Source: Ferrimicrobium sp.
GTDB lineage: Bacteria > Actinomycetota > Acidimicrobiia > Acidimicrobiales > Acidimicrobiaceae
Direction: 5' to 3'
NCBI RefSeq assembly: GCF_027364955.1
Contig: NZ_DAHXOI010000002.1
Location: 1 to 64,000 of the forward strand
DNA length: 64,000 nt
The translations under genes and the position numbers were made by a program. The notes beneath the pieces were generated by a model that was not told the DNA's origin, did no database searches, and was given only the letters and a program-made list of their open reading frames with translations. This document shows, in pieces, positions 17,771-59,652 of this stretch; positions within the stretch are counted from its first letter, which is position 1, and each line of letters opens with the position of its first letter.

Positions 17771-18823
17771 TTAGCCTGCTTGGCTCAAGATCCATCCAGT
17801 TAGCGTCTCCAACGTCGACGCTAACGCTGACTTGGCCAATCGTTCATGTCCACTGTGCGCCAGGAGCGGTTCCCCTGGTCCATAGTTCACCGAAGGAAGG
17901 CCGAGGGATGCGAGAAAACTCACATCTGTCCAACCAAGTTTCGCTTTGGGCTGGCCAGCAGCATCGATCAGCCCCTCAAAGCCACTAGATACGGGCCTGG
18001 CTCCGTCCGCGCCATCCTCAAGGATAACGATATCGTTCTCACCGAGCACCGGCTTGAACCACGCGAGGAGTCGTGCCTGGGCCTCGGCAGTGGTGAGATC
18101 CGGCGCAAAACGGTAGTTGAACCATACTTTTGCCTCATCGGGCACCACGTTGTTGGCGACGAAACTCTCCACACGTACTGGTGATAATGACTCTTGGAAG
18201 CTCACTCCGGCAAGGACAGGACTCCGTCGTTCAAACTCCTGTGCCCGGTCCAGAACCACTCCCAGACGGTCAATCGCGTTCTGACCCATCCACGGTCGAG
18301 AGGTGTGTGCACGCGCACCCATCAGCTCAAAACGCATTCTCAGAGTGCCTTGGCATCCAAGTTCCACGACTCCATCGGTGGGCTCCAGCAAGACGGCAAG
18401 ATCGTGATCAGCCACCATCGCCTCCCAGGAGGGACCGAGGGAGTGCAGACCGTTCTGGTCGAAGGCCACCTCCTCGCAGGGGTAAAACACCAGCGTCAGC
18501 GCGCCGGCATACTCCTGATCAGCAAGGGCTAGCATCACCGCCAAACCACCCTTCATATCACAGGAACCCAGGCCGTAGAACGCCTCGTCGTCCTCATCAA
18601 TCCGCGGATCGCCAGGGACAGTGTCGAGATGTCCACAGAGAAGGATCCTCGCCCCGACCCTCCCATCGCGATGAGCGATGATCGTGTCACCGACCCGATC
18701 CAGTCGCCAGTTTGCCTTACTACTCAGCTGCGCCGCCACGTAATCGGCGATCGCCTTCTCCTCCCCCGAGACCGAGGGGATTGCCAGCAGGTCTCGAGCG
18801 TACGTGATCAGGAGGTCACTCAC
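17771..18823 (-). CDS. dapE: Succinyl-diaminopimelate desuccinylase
   Basis: It hydrolyses N-succinyl-LL-diaminopimelate to LL-DAP and succinate, using two zinc ions (M20 peptidase family). The 350 residues carry the metal-site motifs CGHLDTVPGD near 63, GLGSCDMKGG near 85-94 and FYPCEEVAF with the catalytic Glu near 113. The dimerisation domain and GHERLA metal ligand follow. It overlaps dapD by 4 bp and follows dapC-dapD, making the pathway assignment within the broad M20 family firm. Confidence 0.93.
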   Translation of the reverse strand: MSDLLITYARDLLAIPSVSGEEKAIADYVAAQLSSKANWRLDRVGDTIIAHRDGRVGARILLCGHLDTVPGDPRIDEDDEAFYGLGSCDMKGGLAVMLALADQEYAGALTLVFYPCEEVAFDQNGLHSLGPSWEAMVADHDLAVLLEPTDGVVELGCQGTLRMRFELMGARAHTSRPWMGQNAIDRLGVVLDRAQEFERRSPVLAGVSFQESLSPVRVESFVANNVVPDEAKVWFNYRFAPDLTTAEAQARLLAWFKPVLGENDIVILEDGADGARPVSSGFEGLIDAAGQPKAKLGWTDVSFLASLGLPSVNYGPGEPLLAHSGHERLAKSALASTLETLTGWILSQAG

Positions 18824-19644
18824 AGACCCGCACCGTGATCTCGCAGAATCGCGTTGAGTTCTGTCTTCTCGTGACGCCGCCCGGGGTCAAGCCGAGAAAT
18901 GATCAGAATGCAGCTCATGCCGAAGGTCGCTCCCGCACTCTCACGCAGTCTCGTCCCTGTCACCGCAACCGACCACGGGGGAATCACTCCCCGTTCAAGC
19001 TCCTGGCCGGTGGCGAGATCAAAAATCGGGATCGTAGGAGTTACGATTGTCCCAGCGCCAATCACGGCACCCTCCCCCACGCGCGCACCCTCCACCACCA
19101 TGGCACGAGAGCCCACAAAGGCATCATCACCGACAATGACCGGTATCGCTTGAGGGGGTTCAAGCACGCCACCGATGCCGACCCCCCCTGATAAGTGGAC
19201 ACGTTCGCCAATCTGGGCACAGGAGCCGACAGTAGCCCATGTGTCTACCATCGTCTCAGCTCCAACCCAAGCACCGATATTGACATAGCTCGGCATGAGG
19301 GTGACCCCTGGGCCGAGGTAGGATCCAAAGCGCGCCGAAGCCCCGGGGACGACACGCACACCTGCTTTGGCGTAATCGCGCTTCAGCGGCAGTCGATCCA
19401 CAAACTCAAAAGGGCCAACCGTATGCGTCGATAGTCCACGCAGGCGGAAGGAGAGCAGGATCGCCTTCTTCAGCCACTCGTGAACGATGACCGTCCCAGT
19501 GGACTCGTCGAACTCTGCAACACGTAACCTGCCTTGGTCGAGTTCGGTAAGTACTTCAAACACCTGTCGCCTGGCATGCACGTCATCGGGTGACAGAGAG
19601 TTACGCCGCTCATAGAGCGTCTCGATCTCAGCAGAAACAACCAT
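18820..19644 (-). CDS. dapD: Tetrahydrodipicolinate N-succinyltransferase, E. coli type
   Basis: It transfers succinyl from succinyl-CoA to tetrahydrodipicolinate. The 274 residues match the proteobacterial DapD form closely along their length: an N-terminal helical domain with HEWLKKAILLSFRL, then a left-handed beta-helix with LMPSYVNIGAWV, MVDTWATVGSCAQIG and VHLSGGVGIGGVLEP. Most Actinobacteria carry a different, longer DapD (mycobacterial type, about 317 residues), so this form is noteworthy. It sits 20 bp after dapC and overlaps dapE by 4 bp. Confidence 0.95.
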   Translation of the reverse strand: MVVSAEIETLYERRNSLSPDDVHARRQVFEVLTELDQGRLRVAEFDESTGTVIVHEWLKKAILLSFRLRGLSTHTVGPFEFVDRLPLKRDYAKAGVRVVPGASARFGSYLGPGVTLMPSYVNIGAWVGAETMVDTWATVGSCAQIGERVHLSGGVGIGGVLEPPQAIPVIVGDDAFVGSRAMVVEGARVGEGAVIGAGTIVTPTIPIFDLATGQELERGVIPPWSVAVTGTRLRESAGATFGMSCILIISRLDPGRRHEKTELNAILRDHGAGL

Positions 19645-19664
19645 ACCGGTCTAACCTACCCGGG

Positions 19665-20768
19665 TCACCCGAGCCGCGACGCTAATGTCTCCATCTGTTT
19701 GGTAGATATCGTCATGGAGACGCGTAGAAAACGAGCATCACCATAGTCGGCACCCGGCGCCGTGACCAATCCAAACTTTCTGGCCAGCATCACACCGAGT
19801 GTTGCTCCATCTTGATTGAACTCCTCAGGCGCGCGTACCCAAAGATAGATCCCGCCTTCGGGAAGCCGCACCGGAACACCAAGCAGGTTTTCCAGCCAGC
19901 CAGAGAGCAAACGAAGCCGTTCTGCGTACCGACGACGCTGCTCCACGACATGCTCTCGATCACCCAGGACTCCAGCCGCGACCGCCTGTACCGGACCTGG
20001 AGGCATGAATCCAAGTTCGCGTCTCGCAAAGGCGATCTCCTGGACGAGATCGCCATCACCAGCGTACATACCGATGCGAAGCCCAGCAAGATTTGAACGC
20101 TTTGACAACGAATAGAGCGCGAGGTGTCCCGAAGAGCCGAATCCGAGCAACGACTCAGGTTCGCGAGTCCAACCGAAATCGTGATAACACTCGTCGGAGG
20201 CGATGATCACACCATGTCGCTCTCCAAAGCGCGCCACCGGGGCAAGACTCTCGATCATCCCGGTCGGATTGTTTGGCGAATTGACCCAGAGCAGCAATGC
20301 CCGTCTTGCGACCTCCTCCGGAATCGCATCGAGATCCAGCGTTCCGTCCGTCTTCGCCGGCACACGGTAGGCCTCGAGTCCCGCCCACTTGGCACCCACC
20401 GCATAACTCGGATAGGCGATCGGTGGGATCAGTACGACGTCACGATCTGGGCGCCCCCTGGCGAGGAGCAGCGGCAAGGAGGAGATAAATTCCTTCGATC
20501 CGATCGTAGCGCCCACTTGATGGGCGTCGAGATCCACGCCGACTTCACTGGTCAGCCAGCCCAAGACCGCCTCTTTGAATGCAGTCGACCCATCAGATCG
20601 CGGATAGTGTCGCTCGGTTCCTGAAGAAGCGAGCAGTCGCGGAACGACCGCCGGCGGAGGATCGACGGGTGAACCAACGGCAGCGTCGACCACCTCAAGC
20701 CCACTCTCGTAGGCGATCTCGCGTAGCATCGCGACTGTCGGACTCCCAGTTGTTGCAAACTCCTTCAC
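19665..20768 (-). CDS. dapC: N-succinyldiaminopimelate aminotransferase
   Basis: A class I/II PLP aminotransferase; in this context it makes N-succinyl-LL-DAP from N-succinyl-2-amino-6-oxopimelate with glutamate as donor. The 367 residues show LLWVNSPNNPTG near 160, SDECYHDF near 193, and the PLP lysine in LYSLSKRSNLAGLR near 220. The sequence type is the DapC form found in Actinobacteria. It is the first gene of dapC-dapD-dapE and lies 55 bp downstream of hflX on the same strand. Confidence 0.92.
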   Translation of the reverse strand: MKEFATTGSPTVAMLREIAYESGLEVVDAAVGSPVDPPPAVVPRLLASSGTERHYPRSDGSTAFKEAVLGWLTSEVGVDLDAHQVGATIGSKEFISSLPLLLARGRPDRDVVLIPPIAYPSYAVGAKWAGLEAYRVPAKTDGTLDLDAIPEEVARRALLLWVNSPNNPTGMIESLAPVARFGERHGVIIASDECYHDFGWTREPESLLGFGSSGHLALYSLSKRSNLAGLRIGMYAGDGDLVQEIAFARRELGFMPPGPVQAVAAGVLGDREHVVEQRRRYAERLRLLSGWLENLLGVPVRLPEGGIYLWVRAPEEFNQDGATLGVMLARKFGLVTAPGADYGDARFLRVSMTISTKQMETLASRLG

Positions 20769-20823: not shown

Positions 20824-22146
20824 TCACCATTGGCCGTCCGAATCGTTGGCAGCCTCTTTCCGAAGGCCGTCAATGGCACCATCACTGGCACCACCATCGG
20901 CACCATCAATATGACGGTGCAGGAGTGCACGTGCTGCATCATCAGCTCGCACCTTCAGCTCGACATAGCCATCGAGACTCTCCTCCGAAAGCACCTCAGC
21001 CTCTCGATGGATCTCTGCAAGAATGTCACCCCGATCAAAGGGGACGCGAAAGATCTCGACCCGGTTCAGCGCCCGCAGACGGTCTCCAATCACCCCGAGC
21101 AGTTCGGCAATGCCCTCTCCAGACGCGACCGAGATGGGAAATCCAGCTGGCAGATCGCTCGTGGCATACCCGAGGTCGATCTTGTTCAACACCACCAGTT
21201 CGGGTACCTGGTTAGCTCCGATCTCGGCCAAGGTCGCCCGCACCTCACGCATCTGGTCCAGTGCGTGCGCACTTGATGCATCAACGACATGGATCAGAAG
21301 GTCAGCCTCTGCCACCGCATCGAGGGTTGATCGGAAGGCTTCGATTAACTGGTGCGGGAGCTTGCGAATGAATCCAACGGTATCGGCGAGGAGGATCGTC
21401 TCTCCCCCTGGAAGCTTCAAACGTCTGGTCCGAGGGTCGAGCGTCGCAAAAAGACGATCTTCGACCACGACATCGGCACCGGTGAGCGCGTTGAGTAGGG
21501 ATGACTTGCCCACGTTGGTGTAGCCAACCAACGCCACCTGTAAGTTACGACCGTAGAGCCGCGACTTGCGTTGCAGCCGCCGCTGTCGTTCAAGTGCCGC
21601 TAACTCACGACGCAGCTGACCGATGCGCTCCTGGATACGTCGACGATCTTCCTCGAGCTTTGTCTCACCAGGACCCCGTGTGCCAATACGCCCCACCTGC
21701 TGAGAGAGGTTCGTTCGTCGACCTACCAACCGAGGTAATCGGTAGCGCAATAACGCCAGCTCGACCTGCGCCTTACCCTCTTGACTCCTCGCATTTTGAG
21801 CGAAAACATCGAGAATCACGGCGGTACGGTCGATGGCTGTCCGGCCTAAAACCTTCTCAAGGTTGCGCTGCTGTCCAGGGGTCAGCTCATCATCAAAGAC
21901 CACCGTATCGACATCGAAGCTCTCGGAAAGCGCTGCTAACTCGTCAACCTTACCTTTGCCGATATAGGTTGCCGGATCGGGCCGTTCGCGAACCTGTATC
22001 TCTCGATGCACCACCAGTGCTCCGGCGGTGTCGACCAGACTGGCGAGCTCGTCGAGCTGGTCGTTGACCATCTGCCGCTCTCGGCCACTCGCCGCCACCC
22101 CGACAAGTAGTATGCGTTCCTGAAAGCTCCGTTCAATGAGAGTCAT
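20824..22146 (-). CDS. hflX: Ribosome-associated GTPase HflX
   Basis: HflX is a GTPase that splits stalled or heat-damaged ribosomes. From the ATG at 22146 it has 440 residues: an N-terminal HflX domain with RPDPATYIGKGKV, the glycine-rich segment GRIGTRGPGETKLE, then the G domain with VGYTNVGKSSLLN, LADTVGFIRKLPH and NKID. The ATG overlaps the dapF stop as ATGA, so translation is coupled to the upstream fusion gene. The C-terminal tail is a DGADGGASDGAIDG run encoded by imperfect 12-15-bp repeats. The order miaA-dapF-hflX matches mycobacteria. Confidence 0.95.
   Translation of the reverse strand: MTLIERSFQERILLVGVAASGRERQMVNDQLDELASLVDTAGALVVHREIQVRERPDPATYIGKGKVDELAALSESFDVDTVVFDDELTPGQQRNLEKVLGRTAIDRTAVILDVFAQNARSQEGKAQVELALLRYRLPRLVGRRTNLSQQVGRIGTRGPGETKLEEDRRRIQERIGQLRRELAALERQRRLQRKSRLYGRNLQVALVGYTNVGKSSLLNALTGADVVVEDRLFATLDPRTRRLKLPGGETILLADTVGFIRKLPHQLIEAFRSTLDAVAEADLLIHVVDASSAHALDQMREVRATLAEIGANQVPELVVLNKIDLGYATSDLPAGFPISVASGEGIAELLGVIGDRLRALNRVEIFRVPFDRGDILAEIHREAEVLSEESLDGYVELKVRADDAARALLHRHIDGADGGASDGAIDGLRKEAANDSDGQW
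20874..20912. repeat. Imperfect short repeats in the hflX 3' end
   Basis: TGGCACCATC-like units recur at 12-15 bp spacing and encode a Gly/Asp/Ala-rich tail of HflX. The reading frame is kept. Confidence 0.55.
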
Positions 22147-24263
22147 GAGGAGAACAACCACCGAGCCGGGGTAATATCAGCGATCAGCAGTGACGGGCCC
22201 CGCAGCCACACCTCCGGGTCGGCCTGACCGGCACCGGCTGGCTCGTCGAGATCGGCAGCTGCGCGCAATCGTGCCGGCGCACCATGCTCGTCGCCGTTAT
22301 CGGTGGCGAGTGCGTTCGTCGATGACGACCCAAAGTGGACGGCAAGCTCACCTCCCGGGTTCTCAACGACCGCCCGCTCTCGAATCCATCCAAGATGGCG
22401 AGCCACCCAGGCGGCCGCCACCGAACCAGTTCCACACGCCATCGTCGGTCCGACACCACGCTCAAAAACCCTCATCACGCAGCCGTCCTCACTGCGCACA
22501 ATCCACTCCACGTTGATACCATCGGTCGCAAGCGCAAGCCCCTGATACTTGGCGCCTTCGGCGGCGATATCGAGGCCCTCGAGCTCGGCGAGTCCACCCA
22601 TCACGATCACCCGATGAGGGTTCCCAACATCGACAAGAAAGCTCCCGTCAGGCTCGATAGTCATCTCCACCACACCCATGGTCGTCTCGCCAAGCCATGC
22701 CCAGTTACCCTGCTCGACAAGACGATAGTGGCGAAGCCCTGCGTCGGTCATGATCGAGAGTGCGGGTCCCAATCCATGTCGTTCCACAAGGTAATGACCG
22801 AGACAGCGCAGGCCATTCCCACTCATCTCAGCGCGCGATCCATCTTGGTTATAGAGGTGCATCCTTGGCTGAGCCCCTTTAGCTACCTCAACGAGGATCA
22901 GTCCGTCGGCACCCACCCCATGGCTTCGATCGAGCAACGCCGAGATCATGACGCTATCAGGGAGCTGACTCGGCATCTCCCCAATCAGAAAGTCATTACC
23001 TGCTCCTGTATATTTCACTACTTGCAACTCGCCATCTCTCCTCTCTACAATCTGTGGCCGGAACACCCCTCGGAGTGTTTCCCCCTCCCCAATGCTGTTA
23101 TCCTGAGCGCGCGCCGGCTCCACTCGCTGCACATTGCGGCCACCGTATGGCTCTCCTGCCGTTGGGGCGGCACAAGCTGGATCGATCTCCCCCAAACCAT
23201 TCTCGATCCGACTCTCTTCGGCCAATCCCTCTTCTGCAGGACCCTCTTCGACTGGGCCCTCTTCGAACAGCCCAGCAACCCTTCGAGTGCCATCGATTGC
23301 GTCTGGGTTCCAATGTCCGCTCACTATCTGGTCGAGAAGCCGATCAGCCTGGTCTAATCCTTCGTCGATGCTAGAGACCCACACGATCCGAGGATCTCGT
23401 CGGAGCCAACTCAACTGACGCTTGACAAGGCGGCGGGTTCGTCGCGCGATGAGCTCAATCGCCTCATCAAGGGAGGACTTGCCTGCGAGGTAGTCGCCGA
23501 GCTCGGTGACACCGATCGCGACACGCGCTGTTCGTGATGGGTCCATGGCGAGCACCCGTGCTATCTCATCAACCCATCCACGGGCGATCTGTTGCTCGAT
23601 GCGCAGCGAGATTCGGCAGGCAAGCACCTCTGGTTCAAGCGCGAGTCCAATCTGTGGGTAGCGTTGAGGACCGTCGACACCCAACCGGTCACCAGCTACC
23701 GACTCAGCTCCGCCGCTGGCGAGCGCTACCTCGAGCGCTCGCAGGAGACGCCGACGATTACGGGGGTCGACCAACTCCCCAGCTCGTGGGTCGAGTTGGG
23801 CGAGAAGATGATAGGCAGATTGGTCGTCAGCGTCGTCACGTAGACGAGTCTCCAACCAACCCCGCAGGCCAGGGGCCCCTTTGGGCGGGGTGAAACCATT
23901 CACTACCGCGCGGATCCAGAGTGCCGTTCCTCCCACAAACAGGGGTCGTTGGCCCGCTTCGCTGAGTCGACACAGTTCACGATCAAGGTCCTGAAGGAAC
24001 TGACCGAGCGAGTACTCCTTATCAACAGGCACATGCGCTACACATCGATAGCCGAGTTCCGCGATGGCCGTCGGTTCCGGCATCGCCGTGGTGATGGGTA
24101 GAGCCTCATAGACCGTCAGCGCATCCACAGCGATCGGCACAAGATCACGCCGTCTATGGGCAAGCGTATGGGCAAACTCGGTCTTGCCCGACGCCGTCGG
24201 CCCTACGACCGCCACACCCGTTAACTTTCGCGTTCGTCCTCCCTCACCAGCCCAATCGATCAT
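22143..24263 (-). CDS. miaA-dapF: Fused tRNA dimethylallyltransferase (MiaA) - diaminopimelate epimerase (DapF)
   Basis: One open frame of 706 codons covers both enzymes. Residues about 15-325 are MiaA: P-loop VVGPTASGKTEFA, FVGGTALW, and the C-terminal IGVTELGDYLAG / RRTRRLVKRQLSWLRRDPRI block. MiaA adds a dimethylallyl group to A37 of tRNA. The usual DSMQVYRG and GTAKP segments are degenerate here (VDALTVYEAL, TTAMP). Residues about 326-412 are a Glu/Gly/Pro-rich linker with EEGPx repeats. Residues about 413-706 are DapF (LL- to meso-DAP): YTGAGNDF, HGVGADGLILV, VDVGNPH, and ERGVG with ACGTGSVAAAW. The first catalytic Cys (normally in EMCGNG) is Ser (EMSGNG, codon AGT at 22823-22821). An in-frame TTG at 23027 with GGAG 10 bp upstream could also start a separate DapF of about 294 residues. 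Confidence 0.88.
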   Translation of the reverse strand: MIDWAGEGGRTRKLTGVAVVGPTASGKTEFAHTLAHRRRDLVPIAVDALTVYEALPITTAMPEPTAIAELGYRCVAHVPVDKEYSLGQFLQDLDRELCRLSEAGQRPLFVGGTALWIRAVVNGFTPPKGAPGLRGWLETRLRDDADDQSAYHLLAQLDPRAGELVDPRNRRRLLRALEVALASGGAESVAGDRLGVDGPQRYPQIGLALEPEVLACRISLRIEQQIARGWVDEIARVLAMDPSRTARVAIGVTELGDYLAGKSSLDEAIELIARRTRRLVKRQLSWLRRDPRIVWVSSIDEGLDQADRLLDQIVSGHWNPDAIDGTRRVAGLFEEGPVEEGPAEEGLAEESRIENGLGEIDPACAAPTAGEPYGGRNVQRVEPARAQDNSIGEGETLRGVFRPQIVERRDGELQVVKYTGAGNDFLIGEMPSQLPDSVMISALLDRSHGVGADGLILVEVAKGAQPRMHLYNQDGSRAEMSGNGLRCLGHYLVERHGLGPALSIMTDAGLRHYRLVEQGNWAWLGETTMGVVEMTIEPDGSFLVDVGNPHRVIVMGGLAELEGLDIAAEGAKYQGLALATDGINVEWIVRSEDGCVMRVFERGVGPTMACGTGSVAAAWVARHLGWIRERAVVENPGGELAVHFGSSSTNALATDNGDEHGAPARLRAAADLDEPAGAGQADPEVWLRGPSLLIADITPARWLFSS
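23197..23271. repeat. 15-bp in-frame repeats in the MiaA-DapF linker
   Basis: Units such as CCCTCTTCGACTGGG repeat at 15-bp spacing (clearest copies 23227-23271, decayed copies before). They encode EEGPV, EEGPA, EEGLA, EESRI, ENGLG. The period keeps the frame. Confidence 0.8.
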
Positions 24264-24354: not shown

Positions 24355-24402
24355 GGTGCATTGATACCAAGGTGTGTTGATACCAAGGTGCATTGACACC
24401 AA
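24355..24402. repeat. Three-copy 16-bp tandem repeat upstream of aldehyde dehydrogenase
   Basis: GGTGCATTGATACCAA, GGTGTGTTGATACCAA and GGTGCATTGACACCAA follow one another. The array ends about 40 bp before the start codon at 24443, so it lies in the leader or promoter of the ALDH operon. Confidence 0.85.
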
Positions 24403-24442
24403 GGGGAGAGACTATTGAGATCGCTGGCCCTGGAAGGAATCT

Positions 24443-25981
24443 ATGCAACTCAAGCCCGGAACAAGTTGGGAAGAACTCTACGCGCAGGCAGCTGCGATCG
24501 CCCCACAGGCCTTTACGAAATCAGGGGTAGCAAACTATTGGGGTGGTCAATGGAGGGAGGAAGGTGAGGTTCACCCTGCCACCACCCCCATCGACCAGAC
24601 ACGCATTCACGGCCCCCTTCTCCTCGAGACCCATCAGGCGGCCGCCGCTCTCGATAGCTGCGTCGCCGAGCACTTCCAGTGGATCAAGGTTCCACTAGCC
24701 GAGCGCAAGGCCCGGACAGAACGCGCCATCGCCAAGATCGTCCAACATCGCGAGCTCCTCGCACTCCTCCTCACCTGGGAGATCGGAAAACCCTATCGTC
24801 AAGCACTGGTCTCGGTCGATCGGACTACCTCAGGCGTCGAGTGGTATCTCGCTGAGATCGACCGCATGCTTGACGGACGTGGCCCGCTACCTGGCCCAGT
24901 CTCCAACATTGCCTCATGGAACTACCCTTTGTCAGTACTCGCACACGCCCTCTATGTCCAGATGCTCTCGGGCAATGCCGTCATCGCAAAGGCACCAACC
25001 GATGGCGGCGTCGTAGCACTCACGCTTGCCATGTCCTTCGCCATCGAGGAGGGTCTGCCTGTTACTCTCGTCAGTGGCCTAGGCGGTAAGCTCTCTTCTG
25101 TGCTGGTACGCTCACCCGAGATCGGCGCACTCGCCTTCGTCGGTGGGCGAGATACTGGTGGCAAGATCGCCTCTGACCTGGTTCGGACCGACAAGCGCCA
25201 CATGCTTGAGCAGGAAGGACTCAACGCCTGGGGAATCTGGAACTTCTCCCAGTGGGATGTACTCGCCCCAATGATCAAAAAGGGCTTTGAGTACGCCAAG
25301 CAACGATGCACCGCCTATCCTCGCTACGTCATCCAGCGACAGCTCTTTGACGACTTCCTCGCGATGTATATCCCCGTCGTCTCCTCACTTACCGTCGGCC
25401 ACCCACTCGCGGTCGCCGATCCCAACGACCCGATTCCCGATGTGGACTTTGGGCCCGTGATCAACGCCGCCAAGGCGGCCGACCTACGGGCTAACATCGA
25501 TGATGCGATCGATCGTGGAGGCGTGCCCATCTATCGTGGCAAGCTTGATCCAGGGCGCTTCATCGAAGGCCAAGACTTGAGCGCCTACGTGGCTCCCGTC
25601 GCTATTCTTGATCCTCCACGCTCATCACCTCTTTACCATGCCGAGCCATTTGGACCAGTTGATACCTTGGTCATCGTCGACACGACCGCTGAACTCCTCG
25701 CCAAGATGAACGTATCCAACGGCGCCCTCGTCTCATCGATTGCCAGTGACGACCTCGAACTGGCGGGAACTCTCGCCGCGGAGGTCAATGCCTTCAAGGT
25801 GGGCATCAATCAACCCAAGTCTCGAGGGGATAAAGAGGAGCCCTTTGGAGGACGGGGAGCCTCGTGGAAGGGTGCCTTTGTCGGAGGTGAGTATCTGGTG
25901 CAGGCTGTCACCGAGGGGCCACCTGAGTCCCGCCTCTATGGCAACTTCCCGGAGTATCAACGGTATCCTGACCTAACGTGA
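24443..25981 (+). CDS. Aldehyde dehydrogenase family protein
   Basis: An NAD(P)-dependent oxidoreductase of the ALDH superfamily, 512 residues. The nucleotide-binding part has NIASWNYPLSVLAHAL (equivalent to PWNFP) near 155 and SGNAVIAKAPTDGG. The catalytic Cys is in AKQRCTAYPR near 292. The glutamate motif reads LEQEGLNAW instead of the usual LELGGKN, a marked divergence at the oxyanion/cofactor side. GGAAGGA lies 4 bp before the ATG. Its stop overlaps the next gene by 4 bp (GTGA), so it is co-translated with a MenC/NSAR enzyme. The substrate is not known. Confidence 0.82.
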   Translation: MQLKPGTSWEELYAQAAAIAPQAFTKSGVANYWGGQWREEGEVHPATTPIDQTRIHGPLLLETHQAAAALDSCVAEHFQWIKVPLAERKARTERAIAKIVQHRELLALLLTWEIGKPYRQALVSVDRTTSGVEWYLAEIDRMLDGRGPLPGPVSNIASWNYPLSVLAHALYVQMLSGNAVIAKAPTDGGVVALTLAMSFAIEEGLPVTLVSGLGGKLSSVLVRSPEIGALAFVGGRDTGGKIASDLVRTDKRHMLEQEGLNAWGIWNFSQWDVLAPMIKKGFEYAKQRCTAYPRYVIQRQLFDDFLAMYIPVVSSLTVGHPLAVADPNDPIPDVDFGPVINAAKAADLRANIDDAIDRGGVPIYRGKLDPGRFIEGQDLSAYVAPVAILDPPRSSPLYHAEPFGPVDTLVIVDTTAELLAKMNVSNGALVSSIASDDLELAGTLAAEVNAFKVGINQPKSRGDKEEPFGGRGASWKGAFVGGEYLVQAVTEGPPESRLYGNFPEYQRYPDLT

Positions 25982-27090
25982 TCCGGCTGGCACGCCTCCG
26001 CCTCTACCCAGTTACTCTCGACCTGGTGGCTCCCTTCAGGTCAGCCGAGGGCATCCAACAAGCGAAGCGTACCTACCTGCTTGAACTGCTCTCCGATGAA
26101 GGCATGAGTGGCTGGTCTGAGATCAGTGCGCAAAATGATCCAAGCTACTGGCCAGAGACGGTCACCACCTGCCTTGAGATCATCGAACACCACTTGGTTC
26201 CCCTTCTGGCTAGCAAGTTCTCCTCACCCTTTGAGATCGCCGCCAGGATGACATCGGTCAAAGGCAATCAGATGGCTCGGGCAAGTGTCGAGATGGCCTT
26301 CTTCGATCTCTGGGCACGGTATGAGGGTATGAGCCTCTCCGAACTCCTCGGCATTCCGACCGACGGCACTCGCGTACCCGCCGGCGTCACACTATCGCTC
26401 AGCACCGACATCGAGGCTCTCGTTGGAGAACTCACCGATCTCCGGCAACAAGGGTACCGCTTCTTCAAAGCCAAAGTCGCACCCAATGCCGATTCGGCCA
26501 TCCTCGAACTGGCGACGACCTCCTTCCGCATGGAGCAGTTAGTTCTCGATGCCAACGGGAGCTATGCGGGCACGGGTGAAACCCAACTCGACCGCATCGA
26601 CACCACCGGGGTCGCGCTCATCGAGCAACCGCTCTCGGAGCGGGATTTTGTCGGTCATGCGGAGCTCGCCAAGCGACTGACCACCCCGATCGGACTTGAT
26701 GAAACGATCAGCGGTGTCGACGACATCATCACCGCACTACGACTTGGGATGGCGCCTACGATCAATCTCAAACCGAGCCGCGTCGGTGGATACGTGGAGT
26801 CACTCAAGATCATCGACCGCTGTCAACACGAGGGATTGCACCTCAGAATCGGTGGCATGCTCGAGACCGGCATCGGTCGGGCCCACAATCTCGCCCTCGC
26901 GTCACACCCTGCCTTCGACCGTGTTGGCGACCTCGCCGCCAGCGATCACTATTTTGTGCGTGACATCACCAAGCCCTTTGTTCTCTCCGACGACGGGAGC
27001 ATCGAGTGTCCCAGGGGGATAGGTCTTGGAAGGACACCAGATCCCACCTGGCTCCTGGATGCACCCTTCTTAGAGCTACGCGTCAACTAG
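25978..27090 (+). CDS. menC: o-Succinylbenzoate synthase / N-succinylamino acid racemase family
   Basis: An enolase-superfamily enzyme. The 370 residues match the Amycolatopsis-type OSBS/NSAR group: NQMARASVEMAFFDL, the catalytic lysine pair in FKAKVAPN, metal ligands in LVLDANGSY, IEQPLSERD and GLDETISG, the second lysine in NLKPSRVGGY, and GGMLETGIGRA. The group includes true menaquinone MenC enzymes and N-succinylamino acid racemases, and sequence alone does not separate them. No other men gene is present, and the partner is an ALDH, so the menC symbol is provisional. The GTG start overlaps the ALDH stop (GTGA). Confidence 0.8.
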   Translation: MIRLARLRLYPVTLDLVAPFRSAEGIQQAKRTYLLELLSDEGMSGWSEISAQNDPSYWPETVTTCLEIIEHHLVPLLASKFSSPFEIAARMTSVKGNQMARASVEMAFFDLWARYEGMSLSELLGIPTDGTRVPAGVTLSLSTDIEALVGELTDLRQQGYRFFKAKVAPNADSAILELATTSFRMEQLVLDANGSYAGTGETQLDRIDTTGVALIEQPLSERDFVGHAELAKRLTTPIGLDETISGVDDIITALRLGMAPTINLKPSRVGGYVESLKIIDRCQHEGLHLRIGGMLETGIGRAHNLALASHPAFDRVGDLAASDHYFVRDITKPFVLSDDGSIECPRGIGLGRTPDPTWLLDAPFLELRVN

Positions 27091-27192: not shown

Positions 27193-27252
27193 GGCAGGAT
27201 CAGAATGGGCAGGATCAGAATGGGCAGGATCAGAATGGGCAGGATCAGAATC
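27193..27252. repeat. Four-copy 15-bp tandem repeat
   Basis: GGCAGGATCAGAATG is repeated four times head to tail; only the last base of the last copy differs. It lies between the convergent stops of the MenC/NSAR gene and the pterin dehydratase gene. Confidence 0.95.
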
Positions 27253-29574: not shown

Positions 29575-30993
29575 TCAGCGGTACGCTTCAAGGATCTCAC
29601 CATGGAGGAAATGGGCACCAGCATCGACAATACGGGCCTGCACGTAGCATCCCCGATTGCGTTCGCCATCAACCCCAGCCAAATGGACCAACTTGTTTTG
29701 CCGTGTCCGCCCCGAGGCGACCGAAGCATCCCGTTTCGAAGGACCGTCGATGAGGATCTCCTCGATACGACCGACACGATCCCGATGTTTAGCCGAGGCA
29801 CTGCGTTCTGTCACGAGCTTGAGCTGCGCGAATCGTTGAGCGATTACCTCCGGGTCGACGAAACGATCCGTCCAGGCACCGGCCTCGGTGCCAGGACGCG
29901 GCGAATAGATAAACGTGAAGGCGGAATCAAACTCACACCGAGCTACCAACTCTAGCGTAGCCTCGAAATCCTCATCAGTCTCACCAGGAAAACCAACAAT
30001 GATATCCGTGGTCACAGCAAGGTCAGGTATGATCTCCCTTGCTTGGGCAAGCTTTTCGGCAAAGCGTGCACCTCGGTACCCTCGATGCATCGCCGCAAGC
30101 ACACGGTCGCTGCCAGACTGTAACGGGAAATGTAGGCTCTCACACACCGCTGGCGAATCCGCCATCGCCCGAAACGTCTCCTCACGCATGTCCTTGGGGT
30201 GCGGTGAGGTGAATCGCACCCGACGTATGCCCTCAACCGCGCCGACGGCTCGGAGGAGATCGGCAAAAAGGGGGCGTATCCTTGCGATGGAGCCGCTGAC
30301 ATAGACGTGTCCAGCCAAGTAACCTCGATCATTTGCACCAGCCTGTTCGGTGCGCAATCGTCGAGTAAGGTCGCGTCCATAGGAATTGACATTCTGCCCC
30401 AGTAGCGTGACCTCGGTCACCCCTTGCGATGCAAGGCTGCGCACCTCATCCACGACTGCCTGGAAGGGACGGCTGACCTCACCCCCTCGCACCTGGGGAA
30501 CGATGCAGAAGGCGCAGTTGTTGTCGCATCCGGTTTGAATGGTCACCCAAGCTTTGTGCCCCTCCGTCGGCTCGGCACCAAGATCAGCCAACGGATCGGG
30601 TCCTTGGGTTATCTCCCTGACGTCGATCACCCGGCGCTCTTGATCGCTGCGTTCGAGCAACTCCACGATCGAAGCCAACGCATGCGTACCAACCACGACG
30701 TCGACATGGGGAGCCCGATCAAAGATCGCCTCTTGTTCACCCTGCGCCAAGCATCCTGCCACCACAATCCGCAGATCGGAATCGGCCGCACGCCGCTCCC
30801 GCAACTTATTGACCTGTCCAAAGAACCTATTATCAGCGTTCTCCCGTATGGTGCAGGTGTTAAAGACCACCACATCAGCAACCTCTTCTGAGGTCGCTGG
30901 CGTCATGCCCTGACGGCGCAGCAACGCCACAATCCGCTCAGAATCATTCTCATTCATCTGGCATCCAAATGTCTTGACGTAAAAGCTCTTCAT
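29575..30993 (-). CDS. miaB: tRNA-2-methylthio-N6-dimethylallyladenosine synthase
   Basis: A radical-SAM methylthiotransferase that adds a methylthio group to the isopentenylated A37 made by MiaA. The 472 residues show the N-terminal cluster cysteines (KTFGCQMN, NTCTIRENA, AGCLAQ), the radical-SAM motif CDNNCAFC near 155, GQNVNSYG near 200, FTSPHP, and a C-terminal TRAM domain. A segment of about 25 residues after NSYGRDL is longer than in many homologues. It converges with the chemoreceptor gene; recA lies 421 bp upstream on the same strand. Confidence 0.95.
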   Translation of the reverse strand: MKSFYVKTFGCQMNENDSERIVALLRRQGMTPATSEEVADVVVFNTCTIRENADNRFFGQVNKLRERRAADSDLRIVVAGCLAQGEQEAIFDRAPHVDVVVGTHALASIVELLERSDQERRVIDVREITQGPDPLADLGAEPTEGHKAWVTIQTGCDNNCAFCIVPQVRGGEVSRPFQAVVDEVRSLASQGVTEVTLLGQNVNSYGRDLTRRLRTEQAGANDRGYLAGHVYVSGSIARIRPLFADLLRAVGAVEGIRRVRFTSPHPKDMREETFRAMADSPAVCESLHFPLQSGSDRVLAAMHRGYRGARFAEKLAQAREIIPDLAVTTDIIVGFPGETDEDFEATLELVARCEFDSAFTFIYSPRPGTEAGAWTDRFVDPEVIAQRFAQLKLVTERSASAKHRDRVGRIEEILIDGPSKRDASVASGRTRQNKLVHLAGVDGERNRGCYVQARIVDAGAHFLHGEILEAYR

Positions 30994-31414
30994 CTACCCC
31001 AGGAGTCTAGTGGCCCACGCAAGGCCGCCTGAGAAAGGGCAACCGTACGCGATCGGTTCATCAAGGAACCAGGAGCTGCCCGGGTGCCACGGCCGTTCAC
31101 ATTGAGCTCAAATCGTACACCGACAGCTCAACTGTGTGCACGGAGCGCATCGCGGTACCATGTGCATCGCGGTACCATGTGCATCGCGGTACCATGTGCA
31201 TCGAGGTAAGGTCACGCAATCTCCTACTCCCATCTACCCCAACCCGCCACGCCATTCGCACAATGCCCACGAACCGCCACGTGCAACCTCTGACCGATAG
31301 GAGCATGACGAGAAGAGAGATCGCCAAAAGCACAAGCGGCCGACGAGCCGGATGGCACCGGACCCGTCGACCACTCTCACCGTTAGCGAATACAGCCCAC
31401 TGCTGGGCTGCGAA
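30994..31414. other. 421-bp gap between recA and miaB
   Basis: Actinobacteria usually place recX here. No RecX-like frame was seen on either strand. The gap holds the 17-bp tandem repeat at 31148-31212 and short frames without ribosome-binding sites. Confidence 0.6.
31148..31212. repeat. 17-bp tandem repeat, three perfect copies plus a partial
   Basis: CATCGCGGTACCATGTG is repeated three times without mismatch (31148-31198), followed by a partial copy CATCGAGGTAAGG. Each unit contains GGTACC and a short GTACCATG palindromic core. Confidence 0.95.
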
Positions 31415-57867: not shown

Positions 57868-59652
57868 TCACCTTAAGTGGAGACTCAGAAACAGATAAAA
57901 AGCGACTGGTAGTACGATTAGTATCCCGTCAATACGGTCCAGCATACCCCCATGACCTGGGAGTAACCGTGAAGAATCCTTAGCCGATACCGAGCGCTTC
58001 AGCGCGGACTCGGCCAAGTCGCCTACCGGGGCGATAATCGCTGACGCCACACCAATCAACACCCCCGCCTCAAGGGTAAACGGGTGAATCAACGGGAGCG
58101 CGAAGGCGCCAACCAAAATTGCCGCCACGCCACCGATAAGAACCCCCTCGACGGTCTTCCCCGGTGAAATCGCAGGAGCAAGCTTATGCTTCCCCAGGAG
58201 CGAGCCACCGAAAAACGCGAAGACATCGGCGGTCGTGGCACAGAGTAATGCCCCAATCAGGAGCCCCAGCCCACCGTCCCCAAACAGCGCATGTCGAAGT
58301 AGGAGTCCAGCGAACGCCCCAAATAGTCCAACCCACACCACAATGACCATCGTGGTGGTTACACCGACCACAAACTGCTCACCACGGTGCTGAACCATAA
58401 ACCAGACCAGGGAGACCAGGATCGCCCCAAAAATAACCAGAACGATGGCATCTTCTCCTGCCACATACGCACCAACCACCAACCCGATGACGGCGAGAAG
58501 CCCAACCAATGCAGCGGGCCGATAACCACCTCGACGCAGGAGATTGTAGCCCTCAGCTGCGGCGGTAGTGACCGCCACGACCACGACCACTAGCGTCGAG
58601 ACTGTTCCAAGTTTGAGCGCGCCGATAAAGACAAGGGCGAGTACGATCCCAGTGATGGTTCGCACCACCTTAATGCGGCGAAGTGGATCTGTCCCTGAAG
58701 AAACTCTATCATCTCTTTCCGGAGCTGGGACGTCTCTCTCCGGCGTCGAGACCGCCTCGCCTTGGTGATCGCGCGGTGGAGGCGACCCTTTGCTCTCAGC
58801 AGAACCTCTACCCCACCGTGGCGATCTTCCTCGAGCACGTATGACTTCGTGGCGCGTGCGACCCAACACCGTACCCTGCGGCGGGTCGTCCATCCTGGTA
58901 CTCACCACCCCCTGGGCATCGTCGCCGGCGACTGCTGGTCTTGGAGTGCTCGCCGCCGACCCCCTGCGCTCGTCGAGCATCCGCTGGAGATCCGCGCCAT
59001 CGTCGCCAGCTGGTGGCAAGGAGGAACTCCCCGACGCATCACGCTCGGATACTCGTGGGAGCGTTGACGACTCCTGAGACGTCCTCTCCTGAGTAGTTGG
59101 CCTCGCTGTTTCAGTAGGCCCCACTGTTTCAGTAGGCCTCGCTGTCTCATAAGGACTCGCTGTCTCAGTAGGCCTCGCTGTCTCATTGGAAACAGAGGGG
59201 CCAGCGACAGTCCGATCTGGGGAGAGGCGCTCAACAGGTACTAAGAAATCGTCGTTGGTATCACTGGCGGAGGTATCGGATCGGTCCTCCCTATCCTCAA
59301 GCGCATCAAAATTGGTCGGAGCCTCCTCGTGCACACGAGGAAGAGGTTCGCCAGCCAACTCCTCGATGATTCGAGGGATCTCGCCTGTAGGCGGATCTCG
59401 CCAACCCGGCAATTCCACCGTTGCATCCTCCCCAGAACGACCGTTGATCTGCCGCTCAGGGGTGGCTGAGATACTATAGGGGGCGTCAAGACTCAGCGTC
59501 CGATCAGGATCTTCCGCGGCTTCCGACCCAGGCACCTCGTCGTAGAACAGCGTAGGATCGTCGTCCTGTGGAGGCTCACCTTGCCCACTAAATAACGGGC
59601 CCTCTGACTGCCTGTTGGGCCCTCGCCGGTGGCGTTCCTCGCCCTCACCCAT
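57868..59652 (-). CDS. cdsA: Phosphatidate cytidylyltransferase with long disordered N-terminus
   Basis: It makes CDP-diacylglycerol from phosphatidate and CTP. The catalytic, multi-membrane-span part fills about residues 330-594 and ends with the CdsA signature SALKRSVSAKDSSRLLPGHG and MLDRIDG. The first 320 residues are charged, Pro/Ser/Thr/Glu-rich and without a recognised domain, making this about twice the usual length. This region includes five copies of an ETARPT-like hexapeptide from an 18-bp repeat. Some actinobacterial CdsA proteins have long N-terminal extensions, but none is known to have a defined role. It lies between frr (14 bp) and dxr (17 bp). Confidence 0.92.
   Translation of the reverse strand: MGEGEERHRRGPNRQSEGPLFSGQGEPPQDDDPTLFYDEVPGSEAAEDPDRTLSLDAPYSISATPERQINGRSGEDATVELPGWRDPPTGEIPRIIEELAGEPLPRVHEEAPTNFDALEDREDRSDTSASDTNDDFLVPVERLSPDRTVAGPSVSNETARPTETASPYETARPTETVGPTETARPTTQERTSQESSTLPRVSERDASGSSSLPPAGDDGADLQRMLDERRGSAASTPRPAVAGDDAQGVVSTRMDDPPQGTVLGRTRHEVIRARGRSPRWGRGSAESKGSPPPRDHQGEAVSTPERDVPAPERDDRVSSGTDPLRRIKVVRTITGIVLALVFIGALKLGTVSTLVVVVVAVTTAAAEGYNLLRRGGYRPAALVGLLAVIGLVVGAYVAGEDAIVLVIFGAILVSLVWFMVQHRGEQFVVGVTTTMVIVVWVGLFGAFAGLLLRHALFGDGGLGLLIGALLCATTADVFAFFGGSLLGKHKLAPAISPGKTVEGVLIGGVAAILVGAFALPLIHPFTLEAGVLIGVASAIIAPVGDLAESALKRSVSAKDSSRLLPGHGGMLDRIDGILIVLPVAFYLFLSLHLR
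59094..59190. repeat. 18-bp in-frame repeats in cdsA
   Basis: About five units related to CTCGCTGTCTCAGTAGGC encode ETARPT, ETASPY, ETARPT, ETVGPT, ETARPT on the minus strand. The 18-bp period keeps the frame. Confidence 0.88.

Follow-up and report, generated by a model that had tools for sequence, protein, structure and literature searches.

A miaA-dapF gene fusion conserved in Ferrimicrobium, with a putative internal start for free DapF

The joined frame and its distribution

We analyzed a 64,000-nucleotide stretch of the genome of Ferrimicrobium sp. (assembly GCF_027364955.1, contig NZ_DAHXOI010000002.1, positions 1 to 64,000; hereafter the window), in which miaA and dapF, genes for tRNA A37 prenylation and diaminopimelate (DAP) epimerization, share one open reading frame. 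The frame runs on the minus strand for 706 codons from ATG to TGA, with a calculated product mass of 76.1 kDa. Ferrimicrobium, a genus of acidophilic iron bacteria, is a member of the Acidimicrobiia, and the source genome totals 3,078,341 bases. The locus carries the following features, all given in window coordinates:

22143..24263, minus strand: miaA-dapF fused open reading frame, uninterrupted and open in 7/7 congeners
23322..24263, minus strand: MiaA domain, residues 1-314, its end set by the AlphaFold2 model (last long helix H299-314)
23028..23321, minus strand: interdomain spacer, approximately residues 315-412, fast evolving and free of in-frame stops in 7/7 species
23227..23266, minus strand: 15-bp tandem repeat of 2.7 copies, found by Tandem Repeats Finder in this species alone among the seven
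23037..23045, minus strand: putative internal Shine-Dalgarno sequence, GAGAGGAGA, identical in 5/7 species
23025..23027, minus strand: putative internal start TTG at residue 413, 7 codons before the GAGND motif and ahead of DapF strand E415-420
22146..23027, minus strand: DapF domain with Ser481, Cys610 and a predicted disordered loop (residues 650-674), placed by its TIGR00652 match, alignments and the AlphaFold2 model

The preliminary description of this DNA had placed MiaA and DapF in a single uninterrupted frame, and both domains do exceed curated family cut-offs. The MiaA half scores 165.2 bits against NCBIfam TIGR00174 (cut-off 148.65) over residues 17-300, and the DapF half 156.5 bits against TIGR00652 (cut-off 114.65) over residues 415-645, each satisfying an equivalog threshold; Pfam assigns IPPT (173 bits, residues 51-290) and DAP_epimerase (106 bits). 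A whole-genome profile search of the source genome returned one DapF match and one MiaA match above cut-off. The AlphaFold2 model of the 706-residue chain (predicted template modeling score 0.66, mean predicted local distance difference test score [pLDDT] 81.9) contains two confident, well-ordered domains. Purifying selection is strong on both, with nonsynonymous to synonymous rate ratios (dN/dS) of 0.06-0.20.

The joined frame is open in all seven Ferrimicrobium genomes searched, measuring 668-727 codons from stop to stop, and both TIGR00174 and TIGR00652 exceed their cut-offs in each. In genome G001 an in-frame TGA lies close to the N-terminus of the joined frame, so MiaA there must start a few codons later. 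A search of relatives together with a scan of genome contigs gave 109 loci, of which 10 are fused (the seven congeners, three of them seen twice) and two (L022 and L030) have no dapF in the stretch examined; at the 97 other loci holding both genes, all outside the genus, the genes are separate in every case. Four records (L031-L034) duplicate L003, L005, L006 and L019 and were excluded from the tree, the residue survey and the start-candidate survey; the 97 separate loci include both L034 and L019 and thus count at least this locus twice. Of the 59 genomes that gave a match, 30 were followed to the level of loci, the remaining 29 being judged from the match table only. A phylum sample of 197 genomes listed 28 MiaA places outside the window whose frame measured at least 505; of these, 27 were examined (G081 was omitted), and no further fusion was seen at the 23 places with a real DapF match among the matches listed. 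L120 and L123 had no DapF match, and L134 and L135, flagged as fused, proved to hold chance DapF matches (E values of 0.23 and 0.37). Seemingly long frames at two further places, in G017 and G033, were likewise rejected as independent fusions, since translation shows separate genes; judging from the comparison with translations, the frame lengths reported by the search seem to run through a stop.

The domain order proposed earlier is found, stop-free, in 7/7 congeners. In a concatenated tree the seven fused loci form one clade (support 1.0), to which the unfused L008 and L009 are sister (0.79), with L015 branching next (0.997). With the joined frame open in all seven genomes, neither chance nor assembly error can account for it. 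The assemblies are drafts in 60 to 370 contigs, but all seven share the joined frame despite very different spacers, and at least three (L031-L033) are metagenome-assembled and come from other records; the probability of an assembly or annotation artefact is accordingly negligible. The fusion is genuine, conserved across the genus and, among the genera checked, confined to Ferrimicrobium. A literature search by title and abstract opening, with most subscription journals outside its coverage, found no report of a miaA-dapF fusion.

The interdomain spacer and the start of dapF

The spacer varies from 55 to 101 codons across the genus and has diverged nearly beyond alignment (20% amino-acid identity between the aligned spacers of G000 and G001), yet the frame is kept. 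It is predicted to be disordered at residues 334-405, where pLDDT falls below 50, with block means of 31-41 over residues 331-400. None of the seven species has a stop in frame, whereas each other frame contains 1-7. In dinucleotide shuffles a stop-free spacer arose in 3.9-22% of cases depending on the species, with a product of 7e-6 over five divergent spacers. Neutral simulation gave products over five of 4e-3 to 8e-6 for assumed divergences of 0.2-0.8 substitutions per site, including 6e-5 at 0.5, or 7e-4 at that divergence when 55 codons per lineage were assumed; both kinds of product treat the five lineages as independent. A frame that stays open while its sequence drifts fits a flexible linker, and the AlphaFold2 model agrees.

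At the downstream edge of the spacer, an in-frame start codon is present in all seven species, TTG in five and ATG in two (G002 and G005). It lies 7 codons before GAGND in six species and 9 codons before it in G005; the dapF genes of the unfused L008, L009 and L015 likewise start at -7. Initiation at the TTG would produce a free DapF of 294 residues and approximately 31 kDa. The motif AGGAG occurs 36 or 38 nucleotides before GAGND in six of the seven species, and G005 has AAGGAGG as its Shine-Dalgarno sequence; a strong site is found in 6/7.

The putative signal is also conserved at the codon level. Among the five species sharing the site, residues 311-415 include six conserved columns (R376, E393, E407, R408, R409 and L413), and for the last four a single codon is used throughout: GAG AGG AGA, and TTG. 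In the frame as a whole, a single codon is retained in these species at 94 of 385 conserved columns, the figures being 3 of 43 for Arg, 14 of 25 for Glu and 6 of 51 for Leu. Two of the three single-codon Arg columns are the AGG and AGA of the putative Shine-Dalgarno sequence, codons that make up 7.3% and 3.4%, respectively, of the 437 other Arg codons. Predicted Shine-Dalgarno pairing, calculated with a 9-base 16S tail, reaches -9 kcal/mol or below in 6/7 species versus 2/91 unfused relatives (p 2e-7 by a Fisher test that takes no account of relatedness); the survey drew on 95 unfused loci with the DapF motif, 91 of which had a start candidate. An internal promoter or terminator was considered and rejected: inside the gene there is no terminator-like site, and the one promoter-like site (0.6 expected) is on the opposite strand.

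Readings of the fused gene and origin of the join

We propose, with a probability of about 0.62, that a single fusion event at the base of Ferrimicrobium created the gene, and that its one frame most likely yields two products: a 76-kDa MiaA-linker-DapF protein and a free 31-kDa DapF. Ribosomes starting at miaA would read through the flexible spacer into dapF, while a second set would start at the conserved TTG or ATG with its own Shine-Dalgarno sequence, which would be the old dapF start. Having no stop beside the dapF start, the fused gene would have lost coupling by termination and re-initiation, and the strong Shine-Dalgarno sequence would replace that coupling. DapF is a dimer in characterized species, and the full-length and free chains could co-assemble through DapF dimerization. 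From these sequence features we infer that both products are made. The earlier characterization of the gene as encoding one 706-residue polypeptide stands as regards the single frame; as regards a sole product it is not supported, since the conserved internal ribosome-binding site and start suggest free DapF.

Several observations weigh against two products and against selection for an open spacer. The neutral-simulation product is as high as 4e-3 at 0.2 substitutions per site, or with 55 codons per lineage at 0.3. Spacer dN/dS is 0.53 (p=0.07) and 0.59 (p=0.19) in two close pairs, neither significant, and nearer 1 for distant pairs (0.93 for G000-G001 and 0.78 for G004-G001; the G005-G002 pair is saturated and yields no value). 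The contrast in pairing ignores shared ancestry, and L015, near the genus, also pairs strongly (-11.5). Relatedness among the five species sharing the identical signal means that the codon test does not count five independent events. When in-frame candidates are ranked by pairing, the junction comes first in one species only and second in five, and in G002, whose ATG is preceded by a weak Shine-Dalgarno sequence (-5.1), it ranks 20th of 46 in-frame start-like codons. In G000 and G004 the one better-pairing candidate is a GTG that also lies in the spacer and precedes GAGND by 20 codons. Furthermore, among unfused relatives the best candidate start lies at -10 in 40 of 91 and at -7 in 18 of 91.

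Three other readings have to be weighed. If only a full-length bifunctional protein were made, the Shine-Dalgarno-like motif would be a relic or would encode a conserved ERR peptide; the absence of a strong Shine-Dalgarno sequence in G002 and the frame being open in 7/7 would fit. We regard this as very unlikely, given that GAG AGG AGA and TTG are fixed in five species while 40 of 43 conserved Arg columns changed codon, and that the site of G005, AAGGAGG, differs in sequence yet is strong and has an ATG at nearly the same place. Alternatively, the enzymes may work separately, the full-length chain being cut in the exposed spacer or arising as a minor by-product, in which case the open frame would serve only to keep ribosomes moving to the dapF start, through polarity or coupling. 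A spacer with such low pLDDT would be a natural protease target, the internal start is conserved, and the genes of L008, L009 and L015 overlap as in translational coupling. A stop near the dapF start would suffice for coupling, however, yet none of the seven species has one, and stop-free spacers have been kept against expectation; we consider this reading unlikely.

The joined frame could also be a functional tether, selected for bringing DapF and MiaA together or for fixing their ratio. Conservation through seven genus genomes and strong purifying selection on both domains would accord with it, but we know of no substrate or pathway shared by A37 prenylation and DAP epimerization. No alignment column between residues 309 and 417 is invariant in all seven species, and hence no interaction motif shows in the spacer. 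A tether is thus doubtful, and the evidence that tRNA modification and DAP supply are functionally connected is limited to the conservation of the joined frame itself. A more specific version, in which DapF dimers carry sub-stoichiometric tethered MiaA at a ratio set by the internal start, thereby tying A37 modification to cell-wall and lysine precursor supply, is distinctly improbable.

Two products from one frame remain our preferred reading, and the arrangement in relatives bears on how such a gene arose. The fused gene shares its gene order with the adjacent miaA and dapF of other Acidimicrobiia and Actinomycetota, and in L008, L009 and L015 dapF starts at an equal distance from GAGND, overlapping miaA. 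The relatives differ in having a stop between the genes, and the nearest also in frame, with 97/97 loci and 23/23 phylum-sample places checked being unfused. The dapF ATG of L008 and L009 falls within the 3' end of miaA in a different frame; in L015 the dapF GTG overlaps the miaA TGA (GTGA) and is preceded by GGAGGAGG. Loss of an intervening stop in place, the origin first suggested, does not agree with these out-of-frame overlaps: the join required a frame change and 55-101 new codons beyond a lost stop. An easy stop-loss route does exist, as at 18 of the 97 unfused loci the genes are in phase and one in-frame stop is all that separates them, but it is not seen taken, the stop being retained in each.

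Nor is repeat expansion supported as the cause of the join, and describing the linker as built of 15-bp repeats was an overstatement. The repeat (84% matches) takes up 40 bp in a spacer of 327 bp and was not found by Tandem Repeats Finder in the other six Ferrimicrobium species; 10 residues are missing at its site from G004, the nearest relative, and G001 has an unrelated 18-bp repeat found in that species only. Each having been found in a single species, the repeats can at most have extended the spacer after the fusion.

Enzyme domains, gene neighborhood and implications

The residues of the MiaA domain were placed through an alignment to 2ZM5, the E. coli MiaA, and through the genus alignment. 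Relative to the residues whose roles in the E. coli enzyme are given in PMC8234997 (Thr19, Lys23, Thr24, Asp42, Tyr47, Arg167, Arg170, Arg217 and Lys280), the domain keeps T23, K27, T28 (Ser in G002), D47, Y52, R172, R175, R221 and K281 (Arg in G005). Compared with canonical MiaA (2ZM5; 2QGN), it thus has the same P-loop, catalytic Asp and pyrophosphate-binding Arg. It differs at positions that the same source assigns to tRNA binding (Lys56, here Met61, or Thr in G005) and dimethylallyl pyrophosphate binding (His67, here Tyr72), and the GYR motif is GV[TAS] in the genus, the Tyr-to-Val change being found in Ferrimicrobium and L015. Decay of MiaA due to fusion was considered and rejected, as the odd residues are partly present in unfused sister groups: the tRNA-binding Lys is also lost in L008, L009, L015 and L030, and Tyr is common at the His67 position among unfused relatives. 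Because unfused sisters share part of them, the altered residues predate the fusion. By score and catalytic core, the domain belongs to the MiaA family with altered tRNA-contact residues (window 23364-24215), and tRNA recognition may have shifted before the genes were fused. That it carries out A37 prenylation is supported indirectly by the presence of miaB in the window and by its being the sole MiaA above cut-off.

In the DapF domain, Ser481 (window 22821-22823, motif MSGNG) replaces the first catalytic Cys, while Cys610 is kept, both in 7/7 species. The domain otherwise resembles canonical DapF of Corynebacterium glutamicum (5M47), scoring above the TIGR00652 cut-off and matching the sequences of 5h2g, 5h2y and 5m47 at 5.9e-25; it differs in this Ser and in a longer loop before the last strand. 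The substitution was rejected as a consequence of fusion, being common to unfused relatives: Ser occupies the first catalytic site in 93 of 94 readable relatives, and in the phylum sample 23 readable places divide into 16 with Cys and seven with Ser. By its sequence, then, this is a DapF-family protein of Ser/Cys type rather than a canonical two-cysteine DapF. Cys-to-Ser mutants of this fold are reported as hindered (PMC12039745 and PMC11602996). The Ser/Cys enzyme is nevertheless presumably active, because succinylase genes lie in the window and the genus has no Ddh match or TIGR03542 match above cut-off. For Ddh (TIGR01921) none of the seven genus genomes gave a match, and for DapL (TIGR03542) all seven gave sub-cut-off matches only, as for aminotransferases in general. 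Against TIGR03540, another DapL model, the dapC-like gene of the window scores 182.6 (cut-off 593.25), no genome-wide search having been made with this model. A natural Ser/Cys class of epimerases is worth attention.

Two side observations concern DapF-like sequences. At L124 (G225), L126 (G146) and L131 (G154), DapF-like frames beside miaA have Ser at both sites (SGNG; SGSG or SGTG). The loop before the last strand (residues 650-674, window 22242-22316; locus L007) is a low-complexity expansion in the genus, greatest in G002, and is predicted by AlphaFold2 to be disordered in the species analyzed here; by a rough motif measure from NPGG to GP it has 33-54 residues in six genus members against a median of 18 in others, a few of which reach 78.

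Beyond the fused gene, the window includes the following:

20824..22146, minus strand: hflX (TIGR03156, 427.5 bits), its start choice inferred
17771..20768, minus strand: dapC-like, dapD and dapE genes, after hflX, for the succinylase route to LL-DAP, the DapF substrate
29575-30993: miaB (TIGR01574, 418 bits, cut-off 355.3)

The preliminary description was right to expect hflX next after dapF. Its likely ATG (22144-22146) overlaps the TGA of the fusion (22143-22145) as ATGA, although the open reading frame list starts it at a GTG at 22161; ATGA or GTGA occurs at this junction in 7/7 species. For the succinylase route, dapD and dapE score above a cut-off, and the best dapC model is below its own. 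Between miaA-dapF and miaB, on the opposite strand, lie an aldehyde-dehydrogenase-like gene, for which none of the 25 families shown is above cut-off, and menC (24443-27090; TIGR01928, 264.8 bits against 200.65). At 24355-24404, where miaA-dapF and the aldehyde-dehydrogenase-like gene diverge, a 16-bp repeat of 3.1 copies lies between the two and may represent an operator. Other tandem repeats are found at 27193-27251 (15 bp, 3.9 copies, 100% matches), 31147-31208 (17 bp, 3.6 copies) and 59095-59185 (18 bp, 5.1 copies).

An internal in-frame start that gives a shorter second protein is described for Cas11b of an archaeal type I-B system (PMC11899642). The likeness lies in one frame, internal initiation and a full-length plus a C-terminal product, the latter pair here predicted. 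The difference is that the internal start in Ferrimicrobium would be an older gene's own, kept after fusion, and that the parts are unrelated enzymes. At the level of sequence, the hallmarks of an internal start, a conserved start codon and a Shine-Dalgarno sequence in frame, are present, the latter being weak in G002. The locus may be a natural case in which operon neighbors were fused without loss of the second gene's own translation start, which would have persisted across a genus even as the spacer sequence changed. The cultured congener F. acidiphilum makes detection of the products feasible. Such an arrangement suggests how a fusion can be tolerated, in that free DapF would remain available, and it would make the length of a frame alone a poor guide to the number of proteins produced from a gene.

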